Origin: Myxococcota bacterium
GTDB lineage: Bacteria; Myxococcota_A; Bradymonadia; UBA7976; UBA1532
Reading direction: 5' to 3'
DNA length: 64,000 nucleotides
Assembly (NCBI GenBank): GCA_963169045.1
Contig: CAUJDF010000042.1
Span: 1-64,000, forward strand
The notes under the pieces are model-generated. The model searched no databases and was not told the origin of the DNA. It saw only the letters and a program-made list of their open reading frames with translations. This document shows positions 37,186 to 62,840 of the stretch, in pieces (within the stretch, counting starts at the first letter, position 1; every line of letters begins with the position of its first letter). The translations under genes and the position numbers were made by a program.

Positions 37186-39075
37186 TCAGACGTCGCGGTC
37201 GCGCCACCGGGCCAACTTGGCCTGGAGCGCCTGCCGGCTGATCCCGAGCGCCTCGGCCGTACGCGTGCGGTTGTCGCCGTTGGCTTCGAGCGCGCGGCGG
37301 ATGACGCGCTCCTCGAGCTGCTCCATCACGATGCGCAGCTCGCCGACCGGCAGGTCCTCCATCGAGACTTCGGGCACCTGCTCGCCGGTCACCCGTGGAC
37401 TCAGCAGCTCGACGCCGATGGTCTCGCCGTCGTCGGCCAGGATGACGGCGCGCTCGATCTCGTGCTCGAGCTGGCGCACGTTGCCGGGCCACGTGGCGCG
37501 GCGCAGCGCCGTCAGCGCGTCCCGGGTGAAGCCGGGCACCCACTTGTCGTTGCGCGCGCACGCGGTCTCGCGGAAGCGCTCCGCGAGCAGCTCGACGTCG
37601 CCGTCGCGCTCGCGAAGCGGCGGCAGGCGCACCGGGAACACCGCGAGTCGGTAGTACAGGTCCTCGCGGAACCGACCCGACTCGACGTCGGCGCGCAGGT
37701 CGCGGTTCGTGGCGGCGACGATGCGCACGTCGACGGCCACCGGGCGCGTGGCGCCCACCGGCTGGACCTCGCGCTCCTGCAGGACGCGCAGCAGCCGCAC
37801 CTGCACCGAAGGCGCGATCTCGCCGATCTCGTCGAGGAACACGGTGCCGCCGTCGGCGGAGACGAAGAGGCCCTCGTGGTCGCGCACGGCGCCTGTGAAC
37901 GCGCCTTTGCGGTAACCGAAGAGCTCGCTTTCGAGCAGCGTCTCGGGCAGCGCCGCGCAGTTGATCGCCGCGAAGCGCTGCGCCGCCCGCGGGCTGTGGG
38001 CGTGGATGTAACGCGCGGCGAGCTCCTTGCCGGTGCCCGTCTCGCCAAGCACCAGCACCGTCGTCGTCGTGCGCGCCACGCGCTCCATCTGCTTGAGCAC
38101 GTCCCGCAGCGCCGCGCTGTTGCCGAGCATCGGCCGCGGCATCGAGGCGGCCCCGCGCAGCTGGGCGTTCTCGGCGCGCAGATCGGCCTCGGCCCGCGCC
38201 AGCGCCCGGAAACGGCGCGCGCAGACCAGGCTCGCCGCCACGTGCGTCCCCACGATGGTGAGCCAGGCGACGTCGCCGGGCCCGAACGGGTGCCGCTTGC
38301 TGTCGACGTGCAGGATGCCGATGACCTCGTCGGCCGCCAGCAGCGGGACGACCATCGTGCCCGCGAGCCCCGCGACGCTGGCCGTCAGGTCGGCGTCGCC
38401 GGGGACGTAGGCCATCGCCTCGCGGCGGTCGATGGCGCGCTGGACGAGCCGCTGCGAGGGGCGGAGCCCACCGGCGTCTCCCTCGCGAACCCGAGTGAAT
38501 TCGGGCACATACTGGCCCTTGTCGTCCCGCATCAGGATGGTCACCGCCCGCGCGTGGCCGTAGCGGTCGAGCACCGCGCCGGCGATGCGCGCCATCACGG
38601 CGCCGGGATCGACGCGGCCGCTGAGGTCGGTGAGCATGCGGAAGAGCGCGCGCAGCGCCGGCGCGTCGATGTCGCCCTCGAGGACGTGCTGCGCCTCGGC
38701 GACCGAGCGCCTCGCGATGACCGTGCCGCCGTCGTACTCGTCGTCGGCCACGGGCGGCGCGTCGTCGACGCGGATGCGCACCGGCGAAGCGAGATCGCCG
38801 AGCAGCAGCACGTCGCCGACGAGGACGGCCTGTGGCTCGTGCGGCCGCGCCACCGTACGGTCGCCGTCGCGCTCGACGAGCGATCCGTTGCGCGAGCCGA
38901 GGTCCTCGAAGAAGTAGCCCTCGCCGCGTCGCACGAGCCGGGCGTGGCGCCCGGAGATGCGCGGATCGGGCACGACGATGTCGTTGTCGTCGATGCGGCC
39001 GATGGTGATCGTGCCGCCGCCGAGCGAGACCGTGCGCTCCTGCTCGCCGTGCTGGATGGTCAGACCGAGCGACAA
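37186..39075 (-). CDS. FHA-GAF-AAA+-Fis sigma-54-dependent activator
   Basis: 629 residues from TTG 39075, with GGAG 7 bp upstream. Domains in order: FHA (about 1-100: [26 protein letters not shown]-type pattern), GAF (about 140-290: [13 protein letters not shown]), AAA+ (about 310-550: [24 protein letters not shown] sigma-54-contact loop; [27 protein letters not shown]), Fis HTH (about 595-629: [17 protein letters not shown]). The FHA should bind a phosphothreonine partner, and FHA activators in myxobacteria answer to Ser/Thr kinases. Its targets are unknown. Confidence 0.92.
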
Positions 39076-42336: not shown

Positions 42337-43629
42337 TCAGTGGGCCTGGGCGCCGAGCGTGAACGAGAAGAGCGCGCCGCGGTCGGGCGCGCCCTGCGCC
42401 CAGATGCGGCCGCCGTGGCGGCGCACGATGCGGTCGACGGTCGACAGGCCGATGCCGTTGCCCTCGTAGCGCTCGCGGGCATGCAGCCGGGTGAACGGGC
42501 GGAACAGCTCGCCGGCGCGCGCGCTCTCGAAGCCGACGCCGTCGTCGCGCACGAAGAAGACGCGCTCGCCGTCGACCATCCGGGCGCCGAGCTCGATGCG
42601 GGCCTGCGGCCGCTCCCGCGTGAACTTCCACGCGTTGTTCAGCAGGTTGTGCATCAGGTCCCACAGCAGCTCGGGATCGCCGATGACCCGCAGCCCGGGA
42701 TCGACGCGCGCGTCGACGCGGCGGTTCGGGTCGCGCTCGTGCAGCTCCATCAGCACCTCGCGGGCGATGGCGCCGAGGTCGACCGGCTCGGCGCGCAGCG
42801 CGCGTCCGTTGACGAGCGACAACCGGCGCAGCGCGCTGAGCAGCCCGAGCGCGCGCTCTCCCGCGCGGCGCAGGCGCTCGAGGTAGACGCGGTGCTCGTC
42901 GTCGAGGCGCTCGCCCAGGTCCTCCTGCAGGAACACCGAGAAGCTGGCCACGCTCACCAGCGAGTTGCGCAGGTCGTGGCACACCATGTCGTTGAACGTG
43001 CCGAGATCGCCGTTGGCGGCCTCCGTCTGGTCGAGGCGCCGCCGGAGCTCCTCGTTCTCGCGGCGCAGGCGCGCCATCTCCTCGCGGGCCGCGCGCAGCT
43101 CCGCCTCCTGCTCGCGGACGCGCTGCGTGGCCGCGTGGAAGCTCTCCGCCAGGTTCTCGAGATGGCGCGCCGAGCGCCCGCGCACGACGCCCGCGTCGGC
43201 GGGGGGCCGCGCCAGGTGACCGCGCAGGCAGCGGGCGATCGTCTGCAGCGGCGCGCGCGCCGAGAGCAGCGCGTCGACGCCGGCGTCCACGGCCCGCGCG
43301 GGGAGCGCCGGCGCGGGATCGCCGTCGGCGGCGGTGATCAGCAGCAGCGGCAGCAGCCGCGCCACGGGCTCGGTCCGCAGGCGGCGGCAAAGGGCGAAGT
43401 CGCCGCCGGCGGCCACGCGCAGGTGCACCACCAGCGCATCGAAGCCGGTGTCTCGGGCGAGGCGCTCGAGGGCCCCCGCCTCTCCGCGCACCGCCACCAC
43501 CTCGCACCCGCAGCCGAGCAACAGGTGCGCGAAGATCCGCTCCTGGTTCGGATCGTCGACGATGAGCAGAATCCGGGCGCGCACGAGGTCCGCGGTCGGT
43601 GCCCGGATGGGTTCCGTCGAGCCGTGCAT
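42337..43629 (-). CDS. Cytosolic sensor histidine kinase with degenerate receiver
   Basis: 430 residues from ATG 43629. The N-terminal receiver-like domain (about 15-145) keeps the acidic pair (LLIVDDPNQE) but lacks the phospho-acceptor (DALVVHLRVAAGGDF), so it is likely a pseudo-receiver for protein contact. A coiled coil (about 165-215) leads to HisKA (MVCHDLRNSLVSVASF) and HATPase (NLLNNAWKFT; DDGVGFE; GNGIGLSTVDRIV). No transmembrane helix. A strong sigma-70-like promoter and a GAGGGGAGG site lie upstream. Confidence 0.88.
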   Translation of the reverse strand: MHGSTEPIRAPTADLVRARILLIVDDPNQERIFAHLLLGCGCEVVAVRGEAGALERLARDTGFDALVVHLRVAAGGDFALCRRLRTEPVARLLPLLLITAADGDPAPALPARAVDAGVDALLSARAPLQTIARCLRGHLARPPADAGVVRGRSARHLENLAESFHAATQRVREQEAELRAAREEMARLRRENEELRRRLDQTEAANGDLGTFNDMVCHDLRNSLVSVASFSVFLQEDLGERLDDEHRVYLERLRRAGERALGLLSALRRLSLVNGRALRAEPVDLGAIAREVLMELHERDPNRRVDARVDPGLRVIGDPELLWDLMHNLLNNAWKFTRERPQARIELGARMVDGERVFFVRDDGVGFESARAGELFRPFTRLHARERYEGNGIGLSTVDRIVRRHGGRIWAQGAPDRGALFSFTLGAQAH

Positions 43630-43763: not shown

Positions 43764-43874
43764 GCCCATGAGGCGTCTCAGCCTGGGATAGGGCAACCGG
43801 CGTGCCAGCGTCGCGGAGGCCGGAATCCGTGGGGGCGGGCGCGGGGTCGTGGGGCGGGGCCCACGGAGGCGTGG

Positions 43875-45581: not shown

Positions 45582-46711
45582 CGGCGCATGTCCAGGTGGA
45601 CGCCCGTGATGAGGCGGTCGCGGAGGGCGTCGTCTCCGTCGGCGCGCGCGGCCTGCCAGAGCGCCTCGGCGACGAGCGAGAAGCCGCCGCCGAGGGCCAG
45701 CGCGGCGCCACCGCCGGCGCGGGGGCGCAGCTCGCTGGCGAAGGCTTCGTCCTCGTGGTCGCGCCACCCGGCGCCGACCCGGGCGAAGAGCCGCGCCGGC
45801 GCCAGGTCGACGCCGGCGTGGAGGTCGGCCCCATACTCGCGGAACGTGTCCGGCACCCAGAGGGCGGCGAGGCGCGGGCCGCCCTCGAACCGCCCGGCAC
45901 CGAAGCGGACCCCCGCCGCCGCCTCGGCCTGCAGCTCGCCGGCGTCGATCGGAAAATCGAAGTCGTTCCGCGCGCTTTCGGGATAGCGGAAGTACAGGGC
46001 GCGCACCTGCGCCCACGGGGCGAAGGCCGGGTCGAGGCCGCGGATCCAGACCGAGCCGCCGCCGCCGGCGCGGTCTCGGTCGTCGCCGGACAGGGCGCGC
46101 CCCTCGAGGCGGCCGCCGAGCCGGCCCGGACCGGCGTCGACCTCGGCGCGGGCGTCCATCCAGGCGGAGATCACCGCCGCATCCGCCTCGGTCTCGCGGG
46201 CGACGTCGGCGCCGGCGCGCACGGCCCAGCGCGGGCGCTCGTAGGCGACGTCGGCGGCGACGAGGGCGCGCCACGCGTCGGCGTCCTCGCACTCGGCCGC
46301 GCAGGTCCGGGCGGCGGCGGAGTCGTAGTCGACGCCGACGCGGGCGCCGACGCCCCACGGGGACGGAACGGGCGCGTGGAGCAGGCGCAGGGCCTCGGCG
46401 GCGATGGGCGCGGGCGCCCGGGCGGCGACGTCGGCGAGCGCGTCGCGCGCCATGTCGTCCCGGCCGCGGGCGGCGTCGATGCGCGCGAGGAGGAGGCGGG
46501 CGCGGTGGGAGGCGATCCACGCGCTCAGGACGCGGTTCGCCTCGGCCTCGGCGGCGGCGAGGTCGCCGGCCTCGAAGAGCAGCTCGGCGAGGACGAGGCG
46601 CAGGCCCGGGCGGTCGGGCTCGGCGGCGACGGCGGTGCGGGCGCGTTCGAGCGGGCTCGCGGCTTGCGCGGCGGAGGCGGCGACCAGCCCCGCGACCACG
46701 AGCGCCCTCAT
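45578..46711 (-). CDS. Outer-membrane-barrel-like protein with TPR N-terminus
   Basis: 377 residues from ATG 46711. Signal peptide (RALVVAGLVAASAAQA) and a TPR-like segment (about 20-110: GLRLVLAELLFEAGDLAAA) come first. Then alternating short strands with aromatic girdles and Gly-Asp turns follow (WRALVAADVAYERPRWAVRA; GAGWRDHEDEAFASELRPRA; GVHLDMRR), suggesting a beta-barrel. By position it could be the outer-membrane part of the FecR-kinase-regulator system. Start and stop overlap neighbours by 4 bp. Confidence 0.7.
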   Translation of the reverse strand: MRALVVAGLVAASAAQAASPLERARTAVAAEPDRPGLRLVLAELLFEAGDLAAAEAEANRVLSAWIASHRARLLLARIDAARGRDDMARDALADVAARAPAPIAAEALRLLHAPVPSPWGVGARVGVDYDSAAARTCAAECEDADAWRALVAADVAYERPRWAVRAGADVARETEADAAVISAWMDARAEVDAGPGRLGGRLEGRALSGDDRDRAGGGGSVWIRGLDPAFAPWAQVRALYFRYPESARNDFDFPIDAGELQAEAAAGVRFGAGRFEGGPRLAALWVPDTFREYGADLHAGVDLAPARLFARVGAGWRDHEDEAFASELRPRAGGGAALALGGGFSLVAEALWQAARADGDDALRDRLITGVHLDMRR

Positions 46712-48174
46712 GCGGCCGCCCGGCCGAACGGGTCGCGCGGAAAGCGCAGCTCGAAGCGGGCGCCGCGCACCGCGACGCGGCCGCCGTGGGCCTCGGTGGC
46801 GAGGCGCACGAAGGCCAGGCCGAGGCCGGCGCCGCGGCGGCGTCCGTCCGGCGAGAACGAGGCGAAGGGCTCGAAGACTTGCGCCTCGCGGCCGGGCGGC
46901 ACCCCGGCGCCGGCGTCTTCGACGGCGAGCACCACCTCGTCCGCCTCGGACGAGGCCACGACCCGCACCGGCGGGCGGCCGTGGCGCACCGCGTTGAGCA
47001 TCAGGTTCTGGAGCACGCGCTCCATCAGCCGCCGGTCGCACAGCACCGCGACGTCGTCGCCCGGCGGCGCCTCGAGCGTGAAACCCTTCTCGGCGGCGAG
47101 GCGGCGGATGGCCTCGATCGACTCGCCGAAGAGACGGCTCGACGGCACCGGCTCGAGATGCAATGAGATCCGGCCGTGCTCCATGCGGGCGACGTCGAGC
47201 AGGTCCTCGACGCGCTGCAGCAGCGCGCGGCAGCGGTCCTTGCCCTCGGCGAGCAGGTCGCGGTCCTCGGCGTCGAGGTCGGCGCTCTCGAGCACGGTCA
47301 GCAGCGTCACCACGTTGCCGAGCGGCCCCTTGAGGTCGTGCACGAGCATGTGCGTCATCGCGTCGCGGGCCTGCTCGGTGCGGCGCAGCGCCTCGTTGGC
47401 CTCCGAGAGCGCCGCGTTGGCCGCGTTCAGCGCGTCGTTGGCGGTGCGCAGGTCGCCCTCGCGCCGCGCCACCGCCCCCACCGCCGCCCGGAACGCCTCG
47501 CCGAGCGCGCGCACCTCGCGCGGCCCCGCCACCGGCACGTCCGTCGCGGCGCCGTAGTCGCCGGCGGCCGCCTGCGCGCTCGCCCGCGCGAGCCGCCGCA
47601 AGGGCGCCGCCATCGCCAGCCCGAGGCCGACCGCCAGCAGCACGCCCGCCGCCGCGACGACGCCCGTCACGCGCAACGCGCGCGCCGTGTAGGCCGCGCG
47701 CCGGGCCTCGATCCAGCCGCGCGAGAGCGTCACACGCACCAGGCCGACCGACTCGCGGTAGCCCTCGGCGTCCGGCTCGCCGGTCACCGGGTACGCGGTG
47801 ACGAGGTCGAGCGGCGCCGCGTCGAACTGCCGCGTCGCCAGCGCGCGGCCGGTCGGTCCCGCCAGCTCCACGCGAGCGATGTCGCCCTCCTCCCAGAGCG
47901 TCTCGAGGATGGCCGCCAGCGCCCGTCGGTCCCCGTCGGCGAGCGCGTCGCCGGCGCGGGCGGCGACCCCGCGCGCGATGGCCAGACCGCGGTCGTCGAC
48001 CTCGCGGTTGAGATCCGCGACCGCCGCGCGCGTCAAGGAGAACCCGACCGCGCCTGCGGCGAGGACCACGAGCGACGAAGCCAGCAGCGCCAGCCGGACC
48101 GCCAGGCCCGACGCGCCGGTGCTCTTGCCCGGCAGGGCTTCCTGGACCTCGCTATTCTCGGAACTCGTCGGCAT
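46708..48174 (-). CDS. Transmembrane sensor histidine kinase with HAMP
   Basis: 488 residues from ATG 48174, which overlaps the regulator gene by 23 bp; upstream ATGs lie deep in that gene. TM1 (about 25-47: LALLASSLVVLAAGAVG), a 110-residue periplasmic sensor, TM2 (about 165-190), HAMP, a coiled coil, then HisKA (HMLVHDLKGPLGNVVTL) and HATPase (NLMLNAVRHG; DAGAGVPPG; GAGLGLAFVRL). Its cognate partner is the NtrC-type regulator just upstream. Confidence 0.9.
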   Translation of the reverse strand: MPTSSENSEVQEALPGKSTGASGLAVRLALLASSLVVLAAGAVGFSLTRAAVADLNREVDDRGLAIARGVAARAGDALADGDRRALAAILETLWEEGDIARVELAGPTGRALATRQFDAAPLDLVTAYPVTGEPDAEGYRESVGLVRVTLSRGWIEARRAAYTARALRVTGVVAAAGVLLAVGLGLAMAAPLRRLARASAQAAAGDYGAATDVPVAGPREVRALGEAFRAAVGAVARREGDLRTANDALNAANAALSEANEALRRTEQARDAMTHMLVHDLKGPLGNVVTLLTVLESADLDAEDRDLLAEGKDRCRALLQRVEDLLDVARMEHGRISLHLEPVPSSRLFGESIEAIRRLAAEKGFTLEAPPGDDVAVLCDRRLMERVLQNLMLNAVRHGRPPVRVVASSEADEVVLAVEDAGAGVPPGREAQVFEPFASFSPDGRRRGAGLGLAFVRLATEAHGGRVAVRGARFELRFPRDPFGRAAA

Positions 48175-49549
48175 CGACCCCGTACCGCTGCATGAGCTCC
48201 CAGAAGCTCTTGCGATCCTTCCCCGCCCGCCGCGCGGCCTGCGCCACGTTCCCGCCCGCCGAATCGAGCGCGGCAAGGACATAGGCTCGTTCGAAATCCT
48301 CGACGAGCCGCTCCTTCGCTTCGCGCAGCGGCGTGCCCAGGTCGACGGGCGGCGGTTTCAGATCCGGGACCCCCGTTGGGAGCGCGTCGAACTCGAGCGC
48401 GTCTTCAGCAATCTCCGGGCCACGCGCGAACACGACGGCGCGGTGGATGACGTTCTCGAGCTCGCGCACGTTGCCGGGCCAGTCGTGGCGCACGAGCGCG
48501 TCGAGCGCGCCCTTCGAGAAGCGCAGGTCGGGCCGCGTCGTCCGCCGCGCGATGCGCGCGAGGATGTGGCCCGCGAGCGCGGGGATGTCCCCACGCCGCT
48601 CGCGCAGCGGCGGCACCCACAGCGGGACGACGTTGAGCCGGTAGTACAGGTCCTCGCGGAAGACGCCCTCGCCCACCGCCGCCCCGAGGTCGCGGTGCGT
48701 CGCGGCGACGACGCGGACGTCGACCTTCACCGTCTTGTTGGCGCCGACGGGCCGGATCTCGCCCTCCTGCAGGAAGCGCAGGAGCTTCACCTGCAGCGCC
48801 AGCGCCATGTCCCCGATCTCGTCGAGGAAGAGCGTGCCGCCGTCGGCCTCGGCGATGAGGCCCGCCTTGTCGCGGCGCGCGTCGGTGAACGCGCCGCGCA
48901 CGTGCCCGAAGAGCTCGCTCTCGAGCAGCTCGCCGGGGAGCGCGCCGCAATTGACCGGAACGAAAGGCTTGTCGCTGCGCGCCGACAGGTCGTGCAGCGT
49001 GCGCGCGACGAGCTCCTTGCCGGTGCCCGTCTCGCCCCGGACGAGCACGGGGGCGTCGGCCCGCGCGGCCAGGGGCAGGCGATCCAGCATCCGTCTGAAG
49101 GCCGGCGCCTCGCCGACGAGCGCGCCCCGTCCGCCGCTCTGCGCGGCGAGCGTCCGGCGCAGATCGGCCACCTCACCCTCGAGGTCGGCCGTGCGCAGGA
49201 GCTTCTCGATGCGCGGCAACAACGTCGACGGCTCGAGCGGCTTGGTGATGAAGTCGGTCGCCCCCTTCTTCATCAGCTCGACGGCCACCTCGATGCTCCC
49301 GTGATTGGTCATCACGAGCACCGGCAGGTGCGGGTGGCGCGCGCGCGCCGCCTCGAGCAGGGCCGCGCCGTCCATGCCGTCCATGCGCAGGTCGGTCAGC
49401 AGCAGGCCCACGGGCGCCTGCTCGAGCGCCGCCAGCGCCGCCTCCGCCGAGCCCGCCGTCTCCACGGGCGCGCCGAGCGGGCGCAGCAGGCGCGCCGCCA
49501 GACGGAGCGCGAGCGGGTCGTCGTCCACCACCAGGATCCGCCTCGACAT
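48152..49549 (-). CDS. NtrC-family sigma-54 response regulator (GAFTDA variant)
   Basis: 465 residues. Receiver is intact (VVDDDP, LLTDLRMDGMDG, FITKPLE). The AAA+ domain has Walker [16 protein letters not shown] and Walker B-type LFLDEIGDM, but the sigma-54-contact loop reads GAFTDA instead of GAFTGA. The Fis-like C-terminus is NVAQAARRAGKDRKSFWELM. The variant loop occurs in some regulators that may still activate sigma-54 or have lost it, so function must be tested. It is first in a five-gene operon (regulator, kinase, barrel, FecR, lipoprotein). Confidence 0.92.
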   Translation of the reverse strand: MSRRILVVDDDPLALRLAARLLRPLGAPVETAGSAEAALAALEQAPVGLLLTDLRMDGMDGAALLEAARARHPHLPVLVMTNHGSIEVAVELMKKGATDFITKPLEPSTLLPRIEKLLRTADLEGEVADLRRTLAAQSGGRGALVGEAPAFRRMLDRLPLAARADAPVLVRGETGTGKELVARTLHDLSARSDKPFVPVNCGALPGELLESELFGHVRGAFTDARRDKAGLIAEADGGTLFLDEIGDMALALQVKLLRFLQEGEIRPVGANKTVKVDVRVVAATHRDLGAAVGEGVFREDLYYRLNVVPLWVPPLRERRGDIPALAGHILARIARRTTRPDLRFSKGALDALVRHDWPGNVRELENVIHRAVVFARGPEIAEDALEFDALPTGVPDLKPPPVDLGTPLREAKERLVEDFERAYVLAALDSAGGNVAQAARRAGKDRKSFWELMQRYGVDADEFRE

Positions 49550-49624: not shown

Positions 49625-51790
49625 ATGCGAATGAAGCGTTCCCACACGGCCGCGCTGCTGCTCTCGATCCTCGCCGCCTGCACCGGCCCCGAGGAGGAGC
49701 CCACGGCGCCGCCACCCGCGCCCGAGTCCGCGGCGCCGGCGCCGCCCCCCGCGCCGGCCACCGAAGCAGCGGCCGAGGCGCCCGAGCCGAAGCGTCCCGA
49801 TCCGAACGACCCGCTGCGCCACCAGCCCGACCTGCCCGCCGCGCGCCGCGCCGTCACGGTGATCGACGGGGAGCGCCGGGTGGTCGACGCCGAGGCCGCC
49901 GTCGCCGCCGGCTACACGCTCGTCGACCTGAGCGACACGTGGACGCCGTTCATCTTCCACCTGCAGCACGACGCCGACGGCGCGCCGCTGAAGAACCGCT
50001 ACCGCTCGGTCTACCTCTGCCTGGCCAACGACCAGTGCGACGAGGACGGCGAGGCGCTGCCCGCGGGCGAGGTCAACTACCTCGAGCTCTTCGGCATCCC
50101 GCCGACGCTGGGGGTGCTGCGCAAGCGCGTCTTCGCCGACGAGGAGAAGGCCTGCTTCCAGGAGATCGATTACGACCTGATCGGGTCGATCGAGCGCATC
50201 CCCGTGCGCAACCAGCAGCTGCAGAAGAAGTACGACCGTCGCATCGACGGTCTCGAGGCGGCGCTCGACAAGCTGCTCGACGAGCACGGCGTCGACACGA
50301 TCGAAGAGCTGCTGCCGCTCGAGCCGAAGCGCACCGTCGACATCGAGGACGTCCTCACGCGGCGCAAGCACCGCGCGGTCTTCGCCGAGGTGGAGAAGCG
50401 GCTGCGCTGCGAGGGGTACCTCACCGACAAGCTCAAGCACAAGGACGGGGTCGTCGACGACGGCCTGCAGACGGCGCTGCGGCGGTTCCAGCGGCGGCAC
50501 AAGATCTACGCCGACCCGTGGATCACGCGGGACACGATCACCGCCGCGAAGAAGAAGCCGCTCGAGGGCAACCGCGACGCGCTCGTCCGCACGCTGCGCG
50601 AGCGCGTCGTCGCCGCGACGCACATCCTCGAGGACGGCTCGACGAACGCCGCCGACGGCGCGCCGCAGACCTACGTCGGCGCCGACGGGCAGACGTACCC
50701 GGTGCGCGACCTCGTCACCGAGTTCACCGACGCCGCCGTCGTCCAGCTCGGGCTTGAGACGCCCGAGACGACGAAGGAATTCTTCGAGCAGTTCACCGCA
50801 GAGGACTTCGCGGCGCCGCTGTGGGGCGCGGTGCGCTTCCCGCAGCTGCCCGAGTACTACGGCGAGCACATGGACCTCTTCCTCGAGATCGACCGCGGCG
50901 ACGTCTGGTACGACCCGCCCTGGCATCCGAAGACGGGCGAGCTGCGCTACCAGCTGCGCAAGAACCTGCCGAAGCTGACGCTGTACCTGACGTACCGCGA
51001 GCAGCGCTTCCCGCTCGTGCGCTGGCCGACGACGATCGGCGGCTGGCGCGCGGAGCAGGCGGCCAACGGCTACGAGTACTGGCGCTACAAGGAATCCGAC
51101 GTCGGCGAGCGCGTCATCCGGCGCGTGGTCGCCGGGCCGACGTGGATCCCGCCGGAGACGACGCCGCTGCGCGGCCTGGTGAAGGCGAAGACCGTCAACG
51201 GCGCGTGGACGTCGGTCGTCAACTACGACGAGATGGGACCCGGCTATCTGTCGGCCTACGGCCTCGTCGCCGGCTACTTCGTGGTCCCCGGCAAGAACGG
51301 ACCCGACTGGGACAATGGCATCCGCGCCCACGGGTCGTCCGACTACATGTCGATCGGCAGTCAGCGCGGATACTCGCACGGGTGTCATCGTCTGATGAAC
51401 CACCTGGCGGTGCGTCTGTACGGCTTCATCCTCAATCACCGTCACATGAAGGTGAACGGGGACCAGCCGCTCAACGCGGCGCGGCAGTTCCTCTACAAGG
51501 ACGCGGCGTACGAGATCCGCATCGTGACGCGCGGCTTCGAGTACGAGCTGACGCCGCCGCTGCCGGTGAACGTGCTGAAGGGCAACGTCCGCGGGCGGGC
51601 GCAGCGGCCGCTCGGCGGGTACTACCCGAAGCCCGAGGTCAAGTACCCGAGCGCGGCGCCCCCGAAGATCGGCAAGGAGACCGCCGAGTCGCGGGCGGGC
51701 GGCGGGGCGGGCGAGGCCGCGCCGGCGGGCCCGTCCGAGGCGACGCCCGCGGCGGCGCCCGCGCCGGTCGAGGGAGGAGGCACGGAGTGA
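49625..51790 (+). CDS. L,D-transpeptidase (YkuD/ErfK-type) lipoprotein
   Basis: 721 residues with a lipoprotein signal (AALLLSILAACTG). An acidic Ala/Pro-rich linker follows (about 20-70). A peptidoglycan-binding-like segment (about 250-310: DGLQTALRRFQRRHKIYADP) precedes the YkuD catalytic site: HGSSDYMSIG ... SQRGYSHGCHRLMN, i.e. the HX-n-S(T)HGC signature with the nucleophile Cys. L,D-transpeptidases form 3-3 cross-links or attach proteins to peptidoglycan. The tail is Ala/Gly/Pro-rich. The stop overlaps the GTG of the PEGA gene. It diverges from the NtrC-type regulator. Confidence 0.9.
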   Translation: MRMKRSHTAALLLSILAACTGPEEEPTAPPPAPESAAPAPPPAPATEAAAEAPEPKRPDPNDPLRHQPDLPAARRAVTVIDGERRVVDAEAAVAAGYTLVDLSDTWTPFIFHLQHDADGAPLKNRYRSVYLCLANDQCDEDGEALPAGEVNYLELFGIPPTLGVLRKRVFADEEKACFQEIDYDLIGSIERIPVRNQQLQKKYDRRIDGLEAALDKLLDEHGVDTIEELLPLEPKRTVDIEDVLTRRKHRAVFAEVEKRLRCEGYLTDKLKHKDGVVDDGLQTALRRFQRRHKIYADPWITRDTITAAKKKPLEGNRDALVRTLRERVVAATHILEDGSTNAADGAPQTYVGADGQTYPVRDLVTEFTDAAVVQLGLETPETTKEFFEQFTAEDFAAPLWGAVRFPQLPEYYGEHMDLFLEIDRGDVWYDPPWHPKTGELRYQLRKNLPKLTLYLTYREQRFPLVRWPTTIGGWRAEQAANGYEYWRYKESDVGERVIRRVVAGPTWIPPETTPLRGLVKAKTVNGAWTSVVNYDEMGPGYLSAYGLVAGYFVVPGKNGPDWDNGIRAHGSSDYMSIGSQRGYSHGCHRLMNHLAVRLYGFILNHRHMKVNGDQPLNAARQFLYKDAAYEIRIVTRGFEYELTPPLPVNVLKGNVRGRAQRPLGGYYPKPEVKYPSAAPPKIGKETAESRAGGGAGEAAPAGPSEATPAAAPAPVEGGGTE

Positions 51791-52212
51791 AGCGTCTCGT
51801 CCTGCTGCTGTGGGCCGGCGCGGCGTCCGCGCAGACCCCCGACGCCGGCAAGCCGGCGCTCGTCCGCACCGCCGAGGCCAACGCGGCCGCCGACGCCGGC
51901 GCCTCGGCCGAGGCGCCGCCGGAGCCGGCCACGGTGACCGTCCGCTTCACCTCGAACGTGCGCGGCGCCAAGGTCTTCTGGGGCAAGAAGGTGCTCTGCG
52001 AGACGCCGTGCGCGATCACGCGGCCGCGCGACAGCGGGCCGCTCGACGTGGTCGTCCGCGCCGGTGGCTACCTGCCGCTGCACACGCGCGCGTTCACGTT
52101 CGACGACTACACCTTGTCGGCGCGGCTGACGCCGACCGGCGCCCGCCATACGCTCTTCGGCCACAAGCACGACCCCGCCGCGACCGAGACCGCCGCACCC
52201 ACCAACCACTGA
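51787..52212 (+). CDS. Secreted PEGA-domain protein
   Basis: 141 residues from GTG 51787 (overlapping the previous TGA). Signal peptide (VKRLVLLLWAGAASA), a short acidic Ala-rich linker, then a PEGA-like domain (about 60-115: VTVRFTSNVRGAKVFWGKKV; CETPCAITRPRDSGPLDVVV; RAGGYLPLHTRAF). PEGA domains often contact cell-envelope partners. Coupled translation with the transpeptidase suggests a shared wall function; that is inference. Confidence 0.8.
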   Translation: MKRLVLLLWAGAASAQTPDAGKPALVRTAEANAAADAGASAEAPPEPATVTVRFTSNVRGAKVFWGKKVLCETPCAITRPRDSGPLDVVVRAGGYLPLHTRAFTFDDYTLSARLTPTGARHTLFGHKHDPAATETAAPTNH

Positions 52213-52573
52213 CAGGCCCGCGGACCGATGGCCGAGCGAGGCCGCGGCGCCGCAGACTCGGCGGCGGCGGGCTCGCCCGGACACCCCCTGCGGACCGCCG
52301 ACGGCCGGGCGCTCGTGAAGCGATCGTCCGCCGGCCGCTGCGCCGCGCCATGGCCGGGCGGTTCGACGCGTGGGGGTCGACGGCCCTGCGTCTCCGCACA
52401 ACGGCCGATGGCGAGCGTCCGCGGACACCCCGCCGGGTGTCCGGTCCGCCTCGCGGACACCCCCAACAGGACTGGAATCATTCAGCCTCAGCGGCGCGTC
52501 GCGCTGGCACGCTTTCTGCCCCCTGGCGCCGGACGGTGGCACCCGACGACGAAGGGGGAGGTCCTTGAGCGCG
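52213..52573 (+). promoter_or_regulatory. Regulatory gap with enhancer-like motif before the giant secreted protein
   Basis: No gene is seen in the 361 bp. CGGACACCC-CGCC-GGGTGTCCG (52422-52443) is a perfect 9-4-9 inverted repeat. The half-site CGGACACCCC also appears at 52278-52287 and 52454-52463. They lie about 60-240 bp before a sigma-54 promoter (52505-52520), the usual range for activator binding. The gap otherwise looks like ordinary GC-rich DNA. Confidence 0.6.
52505..52520 (+). promoter_or_regulatory. Sigma-54 (-24/-12) promoter
   Basis: TGGCACG-N4-CTGCC: the -24 GG and -12 GC are separated by exactly 10 bp, and ten of twelve specified consensus bases match. It lies about 55 bp before the ATG at 52574, allowing a 5' leader of roughly 43 nt with a GGGGGAGG ribosome site. 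This is the best sigma-54 match I found. Confidence 0.65.
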
Positions 52574-57901
<5,328 letters not shown>

Positions 57902-58060
57902 CGCCCCGCGCCCCCTCAGGGCGCAGGCCTCACCCACCGCCTCGCACGAGCGCGCGCCCCCTCGGGGCGCGGGCCGCAACGCCCCCACCGCCTCGCACGA
58001 GCGCGCGCCCCCTCAGGGCGCGGGGCGCAACGCCCCCACCGCCTCGCACGACAGCGCGCC
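57902..58060. repeat. Three 51-bp repeats continuing the 3' end of the LamG lipoprotein gene
   Basis: CCGCCTCGCACGA recurs at 57937, 57988 and 58039, spacing 51 bp. On the minus strand the units would read SCEAVGALRPAP. The copy nearest the gene holds its TGA stop; in the next copy this codon is CGA. The coding end has been copied into the intergenic space. Each unit also contains short GC palindromes such as CGCCCCCTCAGGGCG. Confidence 0.8.
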
Positions 58061-59935
58061 CCGGTAGAGTCGGACCTCGTCGATGCGCGCGTCCATGTAC
58101 CCCAGCGGGAGCTGGCGTTCCCCGTCGATCAGGTGGGGCCCGTTGACCTGCCAGGTCAGGCCGCGGATGCCGATCAGGACCTCGGCGTCCTCGCGCCAGT
58201 CAGCCATGGGGCCGCGCTCGAGGGATCCGACGCGCGCGCCGTCGTAGCACAGCGTGATGCGCACCCGGCCGTCGCCGACGTCCTCCCAGGAGGCGGCGAC
58301 CTGGTACGGCACCCCGACGCGGTCGTGCCTGCCGCGCAGCGCGGCGTTCGGCTGCTCGCGCCCGTCGCTCACCGGCACCCAGAACGTGCCCTCCGCGTAC
58401 TTCCAGTAGGAGAGGGCGTCGAACTTGACCTCGCGCGGGTGCCGGCTGTCGAGCGCGACGACCGCGCCGCCGTGGGGCTCGAGGTCGGTGTGCTCGAGCC
58501 AGGCCACGAAGGTCTTGTCGCGGATCATGTCGCCCTGCCAGCCCACCGCCCGCGCGAAGCCGTCGGCGCCGAACCCGCCGCTCAGCCAGCCGTCCTCGAA
58601 GACGAGCCGGTCGCCGTAGAGCTCGAGCGCGTCCCAGCGGCCCGTGTTGTCCGCGCGCTCCGCCCCGGGCGTGAAGGACCACTGCCCGATCAGCTCGGAC
58701 GCCGGGGGCGGCGCGGGATCGGGCGGGCTGTCGGGCTCGCGCGTGAGCGCCCCCGCCTGCGCGCAGGTCATGGCGCCGCGGTAGAGCTGCACCTCGTCGA
58801 TGCGCGCCTTCAGACCGCCCTCCACCTCGGAGCGCAGGCCGCCGATCGTCCAGCCGCCGCGGTTGCTGGTCGTCACGTCCGTCGTGCCGATGAGCAGCTC
58901 CATCGCGTCGTCGCCCCACGCCCGGAGCGGCGTGCCGGCGCGCGCGACCTCGACGCCGTCGAGGCACAGCACCACCTCCGCGGGGCCGCCGAGGTCGACC
59001 CAGCTCAGCACGACCTGCCGCGTCACCTCGTCGGTGTGGCGGGCGAGGAAGGGGCCGCCCGGCCGCAGCCCGCCGGTCGCGGCGGACCACCCGTGGCGGG
59101 CGAGGTGGCCCCACAGCAGCGCGTCGTGGGCGTCCGCGCCGCGGTCGACGAGCGACAGGGCGGCGCCGCCGAAGCCGTCGAGGCCGCGCATGGACACCCA
59201 CGCCACGTAGGTCTTCTCGCGGATCGCGCCGTGCCGCCAGCCGGACGTGTGCGCGAACCCGCGCGGGGCGGCGAGGTAGCCGTCGACCCACAGCGCGCCG
59301 TCGGCGACGCGCGCCGTGCCCTGCAGCGTCAGCGGATCCCAGTGGCCGGTACGGTCGACGCGCTCCGCCCCCGGGCTGAACGTCCAGTGCCCGATGCGCT
59401 CGGGACCGCCGTCGGGCGCCGCGTCGGGGGGGTCCGGCGTCGCGGCGTCGGCGGGCCCGCCCCCGTCCGGCGTCGCCGCATCTGCGGGCCCGCCCCCGTC
59501 CGGCGTCGCGGCATCCGCGGGTCGGCCCCCGTCCGGCGTCGCGGCATCCGCGGGCCCGCCCCCGTCCGGCGTCGCGGCATCCGCGGGCCCGCCCCCGTCC
59601 GGCGTCGCGGCATCCGCGGGTCGACCCCCGTCCGGCGTCGCGGCATCCGCGGGTCGGCCCCCGTCCGGCGTCGCGGCATCTGCGGACCGGCCCCCGTCCG
59701 GCGTCGCGGCATCTGCGGACCGGCCCCCGTCCGGCCCAGGGCCCGCGTCGCCGCCGCCGTCCACCACACGCGCGCCGCCGTCGGCGGCGTCCACCGCCGC
59801 GACGCACGCGCGCGACACGCAGACCGCGCCCGGTCCGCACTCCGTGTCCTCGAAGCACTCGGCCCGCGGAAAATCGGGCTGGCAGCCGGCCGCCGACAGC
59901 AGCGCGATCGCGGGGGCGAGGCGCCTGGTGTTCAA
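58013..59935 (-). CDS. Lipoprotein with two LamG/concanavalin-like domains
   Basis: 640 residues from TTG 59935, which overlaps the kinase stop (TTGA); it gives a lipoprotein signal (RRLAPAIALLSAAGC). A Cys-rich segment (CFEDTECGPGAVCVSRACV) is followed by nine 11-residue repeats (PDGGRPADAAT type). Then come two homologous laminin-G/concanavalin-like domains (about 220-415 and 430-640), each starting IGHWTFSPGAER / IGQWSFTPGAER and ending ARIDEVQLYRGAM / ARIDEVRLYRGAL. Carbohydrate or surface binding is inferred. Coupled to the kinase gene. Confidence 0.82.
   Translation of the reverse strand: MNTRRLAPAIALLSAAGCQPDFPRAECFEDTECGPGAVCVSRACVAAVDAADGGARVVDGGGDAGPGPDGGRSADAATPDGGRSADAATPDGGRPADAATPDGGRPADAATPDGGGPADAATPDGGGPADAATPDGGRPADAATPDGGGPADAATPDGGGPADAATPDPPDAAPDGGPERIGHWTFSPGAERVDRTGHWDPLTLQGTARVADGALWVDGYLAAPRGFAHTSGWRHGAIREKTYVAWVSMRGLDGFGGAALSLVDRGADAHDALLWGHLARHGWSAATGGLRPGGPFLARHTDEVTRQVVLSWVDLGGPAEVVLCLDGVEVARAGTPLRAWGDDAMELLIGTTDVTTSNRGGWTIGGLRSEVEGGLKARIDEVQLYRGAMTCAQAGALTREPDSPPDPAPPPASELIGQWSFTPGAERADNTGRWDALELYGDRLVFEDGWLSGGFGADGFARAVGWQGDMIRDKTFVAWLEHTDLEPHGGAVVALDSRHPREVKFDALSYWKYAEGTFWVPVSDGREQPNAALRGRHDRVGVPYQVAASWEDVGDGRVRITLCYDGARVGSLERGPMADWREDAEVLIGIRGLTWQVNGPHLIDGERQLPLGYMDARIDEVRLYRGALSCEAVGALRPAP
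59432..59728 (-). repeat. Nine 33-bp tandem repeats coding an 11-residue linker
   Basis: GTCCGGCGTCGCGG begins units at 59432, 59465, 59498 and so on to 59696, every 33 bp. Translation on the minus strand gives PDGGRSADAAT, PDGGRPADAAT or PDGGGPADAAT. The array forms the spacer between lipid anchor and LamG domains, so copy number would set how far the domains reach from the membrane. Confidence 0.9.
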
Positions 59936-61482
59936 AAGAGGCCCCGGGGCGGCGCGGGCTCGACGAGCGGCGGCGGCGCGGGCTCGGCGGCGGACGCCGG
60001 CGTCGGGGCAGCCGGCGGCGCGCCCTCGGCCGCGGCGGCCGGCGGCGCGACCGCCGACGCCTCCGCGTGGCTCGACACGGGGCTCGTCGCTGGGCCGGCA
60101 GCCGGCGGCGTGGCCGAGGTCGCTGCGTCGGCGGCCACCGTCGACGCCGTCGAGTGGCTCGACCGGGGATCGGACGCCGCCCGCTGCGACCGCGGCGGGC
60201 GCTCGCCGCGACGGGGCGTGGACGGGCGGGACCCGGCGTCCGCCGCGACCTCGGCGACGGCGACCGCGGGCGCCGTCCGGACCGGCGCCGCCGCCTCGAC
60301 CGCGGGCGCCGTCCGGACCGGCGCCGCCGCCTCGACCGCAAACGCCGTCCGGTCCGGCGCCGCCGCGGCGACCGCGGGCGCCGTCCGGACCGGCGCCGCC
60401 GCCTCGACCGCCACCGGCTCCGCGCCGGCCCCCGTCCGGTCCGGCGCCCCCGCGGACGCCGGCCCGTCGGTGCGACCCATCGCCAGCAGGGCGCCCGTCA
60501 CCGCGAGGCCGAGCGCCAGGCCGGCGACGAGCCACCGCGCGCCCCCCCTGGGCGCGGGCGCCGGCGCGACCGGCCCCACGTCGGTGCTTGCGACGTCGTC
60601 GAGCGCCTCGATGAGCGCCGTGGCGTCCGGCGGCCGGTCGCCGGGACGCTTCGCGAGGCACCATCCGACCAGCTCCGCGAGGCGCGGATCGCCCTCGAGC
60701 GGCGGCGCCGGGTCGTTGAGGTGCTGCAGCGTCACGGCCAGGCGCGTGGGCCCGTCGAAGGGCAGCCGCCCGGCCGCACACTGATACGCCACCACGCCGA
60801 GGCTGTAGAGGTCGCTGCGCGCGTCCACCCGCTCGCCCCGGATCTGTTCCGGCGACATGTACGCGGCGGTGCCCACCGCCCGGTCCTCGGCGGTCAGCCG
60901 GACGTCGTCCTCGCGCTGCGCGATCCCGAAGTCGATGACGTGGACCACGAGGCGCCCGGCGATCGTCTGCAGCATCAGGTTCGACGGCTTGAGGTCGCGG
61001 TGGACCACGCCCTGCTCGTGCGCGTCCTCGAGCGCCCGCGCCACCTGGCCCATGATGTCGAGCACCGTCGCCGCCGCCAGCGGACCGCGCTCGAGCCGGG
61101 CCGCCAGCGTCTCGCCCTCGAGCAACGGCGACACGAGGTAGGGGCGGCCGTCTTCGAGGTGGCCGAAGTCGATCAGGCTCACCGCGTGCGGGTGACGCAG
61201 CCGGCCGAGGATGAGCGCCTCGGCCTCGAAGCGCCGGGCCGCGACCGGATCGGTGGCGTCCGCCGCGAGCACCTTGATCGCGACAGGGCGCTCGATGCCG
61301 ACCTGGACGCCGCGGTAGACGGTGCCGTGCCCGCCCCCGGCCAGGCGGTCGACGACGCGGTGCCGCCCCCCGATCAGCGTCCCCACCAGCGGGTCGTCGC
61401 GGCCCTCGTCGAGGCGCACGCCGTCGCGCGGGCAGAAGCGAGCGCTCGCAGCGTATCGTTCGCCGCACGCAGGACAACGCAT
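59932..61482 (-). CDS. Transmembrane Ser/Thr protein kinase with N-terminal zinc ribbon
   Basis: About 516 residues from ATG 61482 (GTG 61500 is an alternative). The N-terminal zinc ribbon is CPACGERYAASARFCPRDG. The kinase domain (about 30-290) is complete: GGGHGTVYRG, VAIKVLA, HRDLKPSNLM, DFGIAQRED and GTAAYMSPEQIRGE, so it should be active. One helix (WLVAGLALGLAVTGALLA) follows, then a repetitive VEAAAPVRTAPA tail. By analogy its output could be the divergent FHA activator. It is the upstream partner of the LamG lipoprotein. Confidence 0.93.
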   Translation of the reverse strand: MRCPACGERYAASARFCPRDGVRLDEGRDDPLVGTLIGGRHRVVDRLAGGGHGTVYRGVQVGIERPVAIKVLAADATDPVAARRFEAEALILGRLRHPHAVSLIDFGHLEDGRPYLVSPLLEGETLAARLERGPLAAATVLDIMGQVARALEDAHEQGVVHRDLKPSNLMLQTIAGRLVVHVIDFGIAQREDDVRLTAEDRAVGTAAYMSPEQIRGERVDARSDLYSLGVVAYQCAAGRLPFDGPTRLAVTLQHLNDPAPPLEGDPRLAELVGWCLAKRPGDRPPDATALIEALDDVASTDVGPVAPAPAPRGGARWLVAGLALGLAVTGALLAMGRTDGPASAGAPDRTGAGAEPVAVEAAAPVRTAPAVAAAAPDRTAFAVEAAAPVRTAPAVEAAAPVRTAPAVAVAEVAADAGSRPSTPRRGERPPRSQRAASDPRSSHSTASTVAADAATSATPPAAGPATSPVSSHAEASAVAPPAAAAEGAPPAAPTPASAAEPAPPPLVEPAPPRGLF

Positions 61483-61508
61483 CCGGTCGGGGAGGGACAC
61501 CCGGCCAT

Positions 61509-61574
61509 AGTACACTGGATCGTTCAGGACGGAATTCGTACAACCAGGACGGACATCGTTCCTCGAGTACACTG
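61509..61574. promoter_or_regulatory. Direct repeats in the kinase/activator divergent region
   Basis: AGTACACTG occurs at 61509-61517 and 61566-61574 (57 bp apart), and ATCGTTC near both (61519 and 61555). Two such 9-mers in about 100 bp of divergent promoter suggest a binding site for a shared regulator. No clear -10/-35 pair could be settled for either gene. Confidence 0.4.
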
Positions 61575-61580
61575 AGGCCG

Positions 61581-62840
61581 GTGAAGGATCACACGACGGA
61601 GACGGCCCCGCGCCCGCGGGCCGCGGCCGGGGGGCCAGGAGCAAGACGCTCCCTCGTGCCGGTCCACCCGCAGCCGGCCCCGCCCCAGCCCATCGGCGAC
61701 GGGCTCCGCGTCGGCCGCCAGGCCGGCGCCGGCGGCCTGAGCTGCGACGATCCGCGGCTGAGCCGGGTGCACTTCGAGATCCGACCGGTCGGCGCCTCGC
61801 TCCGCCTCGACGACCAGGGCGCGAAGAACGGCACGCGCGTGGACGGCCGGCCGGTGCAGCGGGCCCACCTCGAGCACGGCTCGATCGTCCGCGCCGGCGA
61901 CTCGCTCTTCGTCGTCGAGGACGTCGCGCCCCCGGCGCCCGGCTGCGACGACCCGCCCGCCGGCCTGTCGGCGGTGCTGTCCTGGGCGCAGCAGGTCGTG
62001 GACCGGGTCGCGCCCACCGCGCTGACCGTCCTGGTCCACGGGCCGTCCGGCGCGGGCAAGGAGCGGCTGGCGCGGCGCCTCCACGAGACGAGCGGCCGCC
62101 GGGGCGCCTTCGTGCCGGTCAACTGCAGCGCGCTGCCCGCGACGCTCGCGGCCAGCGAGCTCTTCGGACACGTGCGCGGCGCGTTCTCGGGCGCCGAGGG
62201 GCGACCGGGCCTGCTGGCGGCCGCCGCCGGCGGGACGCTCTTCCTCGACGAGGTGGGCGACCTGCCGCTCGATCTGCAGCCCGTCCTGCTGCGGGCGATC
62301 CAGGAGCGCGCCATCCGCCCCGTCGGCGGCGACCGCGAGGTCCCGATCGACGTGCGGATCGTGGCCGCGACCCACCGGAGCCTGCCCGAGGCCGTCGCGG
62401 CGGGGCGCTTCCGGGCGGACCTGCTCGCGCGCCTGACCGAGTTCGAGGTCGAGCTGCCCGGCCTGGCCGAGCGCAAGGCCGACGTCCTGCCGCTCTTCGA
62501 GGCGCTCGTCGGCCAGCCCGTCAGCGTCGACGCCGCCGAGGCGTTGCTGCTGCACGACTGGCCCACGAACGTCCGCGGACTGCAGCAGATCGCCAATCGC
62601 ATCCGGCTGTTCGCGGACGGCCGGGGCCGCGTGGAGCTCTCGATGCTGCCGACGGCGATGCAGGACGCCGTCGGGACCGGCGCCCTCGAGCCAGCGCAGA
62701 TCTCGCCGGCGGAGCTCGCGCGGCTGCTCGAGCTGCACCAGGGCAACGTGTCGCGCGTGGCGCGCGCCGTAGGCTCGACGCGCCAGCGCGTCTACCGGCT
62801 GCTCGAGAGCCTCGACATCGACGTCCGGTCGTTCCGGTGA
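61581..62840 (+). CDS. FHA-domain sigma-54-dependent activator
   Basis: 419 residues from GTG 61581. N-terminal FHA domain (about 35-115: [27 protein letters not shown]), then AAA+ (about 130-345: [22 protein letters not shown] loop; [27 protein letters not shown]) and a Fis-type HTH ([20 protein letters not shown]). There is no receiver, so input should come through FHA binding of a phosphothreonine, most simply from the divergent kinase. Known myxobacterial FHA activators work this way. Its stop overlaps the next start (GTGA). Confidence 0.9.

Follow-up and report, generated by a model that had tools for sequence, protein, structure and literature searches.

A candidate sigma-54 promoter with an upstream palindrome ahead of a giant TSP3-repeat gene in a Myxococcota genome

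We examined the region ahead of the giant gene at 52574-57901 (+) in the window, that is, the whole stretch of 64,000 nucleotides that was analysed. We judge it reasonably likely that this region holds a sigma-54 promoter served by one activator site upstream of it, and that the promoter drives a gene for a secreted TSP3-repeat protein of 1775 amino acids. This is the best reading of the region because sigma-54 cores in this genome are located at promoters, because inverted repeats are enriched upstream of them, and because the palindrome upstream of the core, centred at about -98, lies where the sites of sigma-54 activators (EBPs) lie. The region is thus probably a genuine and ordinary sigma-54 promoter with a single upstream activator site, an arrangement of a known kind. 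An earlier, sequence-only reading had proposed a sigma-54 promoter with an enhancer-like palindrome; that interpretation still explains the region best, on weaker grounds than were claimed for it, given the poor rank of the letters around the core, a better core elsewhere in the window and a half-site that belongs to a mobile-element relic.

The sigma-54 core and its class in the genome

The -24/-12 core TGGCACG-CTTT-CTGC (TGGCACGCTTTCTGC) lies at 52505-52519 (+), and the near-consensus letters and exact 10-base spacing from GG to GC reported earlier are both present. Compared with a core of the type TGGCACG-N4-TTGC(A/T), it departs at one position, where the -12 block has C in place of T. Its -12 GC is 55 nt 5' of the ATG at 52574, a position suitable for a promoter, and transcription would start near 52531. 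No sigma-70-like site was found when 51700-52700 was scanned.

The genome, of 9.0 Mb (the window is 74% G+C), contains one rpoN gene (PF04552, E 7.7e-66 in a profile search of the genome), 62 matches to PF00158 and more than 50 EBPs. We searched it for the strict sigma-54 pattern TGGCACG-N5-TGC, with the reversed pattern as a control. The strict pattern occurs 71 times and the reversed pattern 69; because these counts are nearly equal they are uninformative, and we used location instead. Intergenic sequence holds 58 of the 71 strict cores, compared with 4 of 30 for the reversed control (Fisher p about 1e-10), and 51 of the 71 lie just 5' of a start on the same strand. Genes were called with a simple codon-bias method that had been trained on the window genes, so the exact values of all such genome-wide counts are approximate. 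Columns outside the search pattern are conserved as well: a T follows TGC in 57% of the class, against a background of 13%, and A/T is found two to three bases beyond it, giving the 58 intergenic sites an extended signature TGC-T-C-A/T-A/T. Since columns that the search did not use are conserved, the class is real, and its cores are strongly associated with promoter positions in this genome. With strict cores at promoters and the extended signature (TGC-T-C-A/T) to guide the search, a map of the regulon becomes feasible in this G+C-rich genome.

Within this class the 52505 site is a good member by its core and a poor one by the surrounding letters. When the letters outside the core were scored by leave-one-out against the genome's own sigma-54 class, the site ranked 52 of 58 with a score of -1.78, a value reached by 32% of random intergenic stretches. 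The nine bases after its -12 GC are G+C-rich (CCCCTGGCG), and the T and A/T-rich letters that are typical of the class at this place, without strictly defining it, are absent. The missing downstream letters and low rank would be expected if the core were coincidental and the gene were driven by a non-sigma-54 promoter that a consensus scan cannot recognise in a G+C-rich genome. The same explanation is favoured by the near equality of the strict and reversed counts and by the CTGC-type cores, which are intergenic in 16 of 23 cases, somewhat below the class as a whole. However, given where the cores of the class lie and how they are oriented, most intergenic matches should be genuine, with roughly 2-9 chance matches among the 58 as estimated from the genic fraction and the reversed control. 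We therefore consider a coincidental core quite unlikely, and in our judgement, which was not computed, the 52505 core is likely a sigma-54 promoter that is used. As such it is one of about 50 such switches in the genome, credible and not unusual.

Contrary to what had been claimed, the 52505 site is not the best fit to sigma-54 in the window. On the minus strand at 43793-43807, TGGCACG-CCGG-TTGC matches the core consensus in full, is also intergenic, and has an outer-letter rank of 38, above that of the 52505 site. This second core lies upstream of a histidine kinase gene (42337-43629, -), about 165 nt before its start. Between the core and 43629 the leader contains a long inverted repeat, GCGCGGGAGCCGG ... 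CCGGCTCCCGCG, and may therefore give rise to a leader RNA or a small RNA; a comparison with Rfam gave no match.

The palindrome and the further copies of its arm

At 52422-52443 we find a perfect 9-4-9 palindrome, CGGACACCC-CGCC-GGGTGTCCG, letter for letter the inverted repeat described in the sequence-only reading. It is a candidate site for an EBP dimer, and its centre at about -98 from the predicted start falls within the range of about 80-200 bp upstream in which a palindromic site of this kind would be sought. Two extra half-sites had also been described, and CGGACACCC does occur on the plus strand at both 52454-52462 and 52278-52286. The nearer copy, 32 bp (about three helical turns) 3' of the first arm, is a candidate weak second site. 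The distal copy lies outside the range given for the feature and within a relic at 52220-52312 (+), extending to about 52358 under relaxed scoring, which is an eroded copy of a MITE-like dispersed element of about 176 bp. That element has terminal inverted repeats AGAGGGTGTTCCCATGAAAAT and is present genome-wide in about 20-25 copies, full or partial; the relic aligns to it with a score of 64, compared with at most 39 in 500 shuffles, and no comparable match to its core appeared among the family matches listed. Because the 52278 half-site is inside this relic, it is probably no part of the promoter, and probably not a designed enhancer element.

A palindrome of this size is no evidence by itself, since the window contains 13 perfect 9-bp inverted repeats with loops of 3-8 bp where simulation predicts 16.7. 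A scan of the full genome for the palindrome near -24/-12 sites had been suggested as a check; no second copy exists genome-wide, whether at up to two mismatches or as exact GGACAC-N8-GTGTCC, and no exact copy was found in 12 family genomes. EBP sites are usually, if not necessarily, shared or conserved, and this palindrome is neither. A literature search on its sequence yielded nothing useful. We also considered that the arms might be the ends of a repeated element, and rejected this because CGGACACCC is not over-represented: it occurs 11 times in 677 kb, including the four copies here, where about 22 are expected from base composition.

The chance frequency of such repeats, the lack of any second or conserved copy and the half-site within the relic all fit a different account, in which the sigma-54 promoter is real, the palindrome is a chance repeat or the operator of another regulator, and the EBP uses a weaker site or acts from solution. 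Against this account stands the repetition of the arm. The same A/T-containing 9-mer occurs three times in the 200 bp upstream of the 52505 core, all three copies falling in the nearest 85 bp and at the usual EBP distance, and a three-fold word of nine or more letters appeared in only 5 of 4,000 simulated regions. Ranked by longest three-fold repeated word, the 52505 region comes first of 58 real sigma-54 upstream regions; larger repeated words as such do not set sigma-54 regions apart, those of 8 letters or more being found in 6 of 58 such regions and 4 of 62 others. Inverted repeats whose arms reach 6 bp or more are enriched upstream of the class, being present in 28 of the 58 sigma-54 regions and 11 of 62 other upstream regions (p = 3e-4). 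On balance we hold this account, a real promoter with an unrelated palindrome, to be unlikely. If the 52505 core is used, the palindrome is likely to be its activator site, again as a judgement that was not computed. Strong upstream palindromes are found in several class members, one of which carries CGGTGTCGCG-N4-CGCGACACCG and another GGCACGTGCCAG-N8.

The palindrome could instead act in RNA, as a hairpin, terminator or attenuator of the upstream PEGA gene. Its 9-bp stem can fold, and the third copy of the arm could supply an alternative stem. However, there is no T-run, no terminator was called in 51700-52700, folding is unexceptional (z = -1.4), and the palindrome lies 210 nt past the PEGA stop codon. 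With no terminator call and unexceptional folding, a terminator is rejected, and an RNA role of any of these kinds is very improbable.

The giant gene and its candidate activators

The gene at 52574-57901 encodes a putative signal peptide, TSP3 repeats, Cys-rich repeats and a Cys-rich C-terminus, and coding potential backs its start. The frame is open from 52370, and a start codon 5' of the promoter was rejected in view of the composition ahead of 52574, which is non-coding (-30.6 vs +9.2). A signal-peptide-like sequence, judged by eye, starts at 52574; the non-coding composition before this point and the signal-peptide-like start there therefore place the promoter outside the gene. The 1775-residue product is a predicted secreted TSP3-repeat protein, and its sequence is compatible with either a surface or a released location. 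For the 167 N-terminal residues that follow the signal peptide, 56 other genomes of the bacterial class offer no relative, and TSP3 hits match the repeats only. With the palindrome unique and unconserved and the N-terminus lacking relatives, there is nothing conserved to test the arrangement against. Sigma-54 control as a general trait of TSP3 giant genes was rejected, since none of eight such loci has a strong sigma-54 core, some of the gene starts possibly lying beyond the stretches compared.

Upstream on the same strand are the gene for the PEGA-domain protein (141 aa, 51787-52212, +) and a lipoprotein-like gene (49625-51790, +) with a peptidoglycan-binding match and a weak L,D-transpeptidase (YkuD) match. 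On the other side, a gene with a laminin-G/concanavalin-like domain occupies 58013-59950 (-), where 33-bp tandem repeats (about 59430-59740) encode a low-complexity linker. A 30-bp tandem repeat is found at 39-200, at the start of the window.

The window does contain three sigma-54 activator genes, as had been noted, with PF00158 domains at 37630, 48620 and 61977; because the genome has more than 50 EBPs, their presence is little evidence. One is an NtrC-type response regulator (REC-AAA+-Fis HTH; 48152-49549, -), adjoined by a histidine kinase whose open frame spans 46708-48282 (-) and whose true start is probably near 48150. Another is an FHA-GAF-AAA+-Fis EBP (37186-39075, -). The third, an FHA-AAA+ EBP (61581-62840, +), is divergent from a Ser/Thr protein kinase gene (59932-61644, -), and the two, spanning 59932-62840, are likely to form a kinase-to-EBP signalling module. 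Clear orthologs of the NtrC-type regulator, which lies 3 kb upstream of the giant gene, are present in four family genomes (64-66%), and all four loci keep the EBP and the kinase. Over the length that the contigs cover, the giant gene, the downstream genes and the palindrome are absent around these four orthologs, two of the contigs ending within a few kb. This nearest EBP is therefore disfavoured as the activator; with two of four contigs ending early, the comparison is not a full test.

If the preferred reading is correct, RNA polymerase carrying RpoN would bind the core at 52505-52519 and remain closed. A dimer of one of the genome's many EBPs would bind the palindrome, perhaps assisted by the 52454 half-site, then oligomerise, loop across about 70 bp and open the promoter near 52531 using ATP. 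The mRNA would begin about 43 nt before the ATG and encode the secreted TSP3-repeat protein. A large, lineage-specific secreted protein would then be switched on only when one signalling pathway activates its EBP. A stronger version, in which a species-specific giant TSP3 surface protein has a dedicated EBP and an operator sequence that serves no other target in the genome, strikes us as doubtful.

Comparison with known systems

MrpC of M. xanthus binds sites of the form GTGTC-N8-GACAC. These share their GTGTC and GACAC words and their spacing with the palindrome, but with the two halves swapped; the palindrome reads GACAC-N8-GTGTC and so is not of the MrpC type by that consensus.

The geometry of the palindrome fits that described for EBP sites (PMC4641369). 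NmpR, an NtrC-like response regulator of Myxococcus xanthus, recognises GCGCA-N5-TGCGC upstream of sigma-54 promoters, usually at two sites 14-15 bp apart (PMC11841059). The present region resembles these in having an intergenic palindrome 5' of a -24/-12 core, and differs in its unrelated sequence, in having one full palindrome plus a half-site, and in its target, a giant TSP3 protein. Nla28 uses tandem half-sites CT(C/G)CG(C/G)AG upstream of sigma-54 promoters (PMC9765219). Here too 8-9 bp half-sites are repeated near a TGGCACG-N4-TTGC core, but the half-site sequence is another one and the main site is inverted rather than tandem. By inspection, CGGACACCC matches neither published consensus.

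Sigma-54 has been described as a controller of the bacterial exterior in a survey that deals with exopolysaccharide, flagella, lipopolysaccharide, lipoproteins and peptidoglycan (PMC3162934). TSP3 proteins, the target here, go unmentioned in its abstract, while a sigma-54 promoter ahead of a gene for a secreted or surface protein belongs to the same theme. If the promoter works as we propose, the switch of the giant gene would accord with a role of sigma-54 in controlling the cell exterior.
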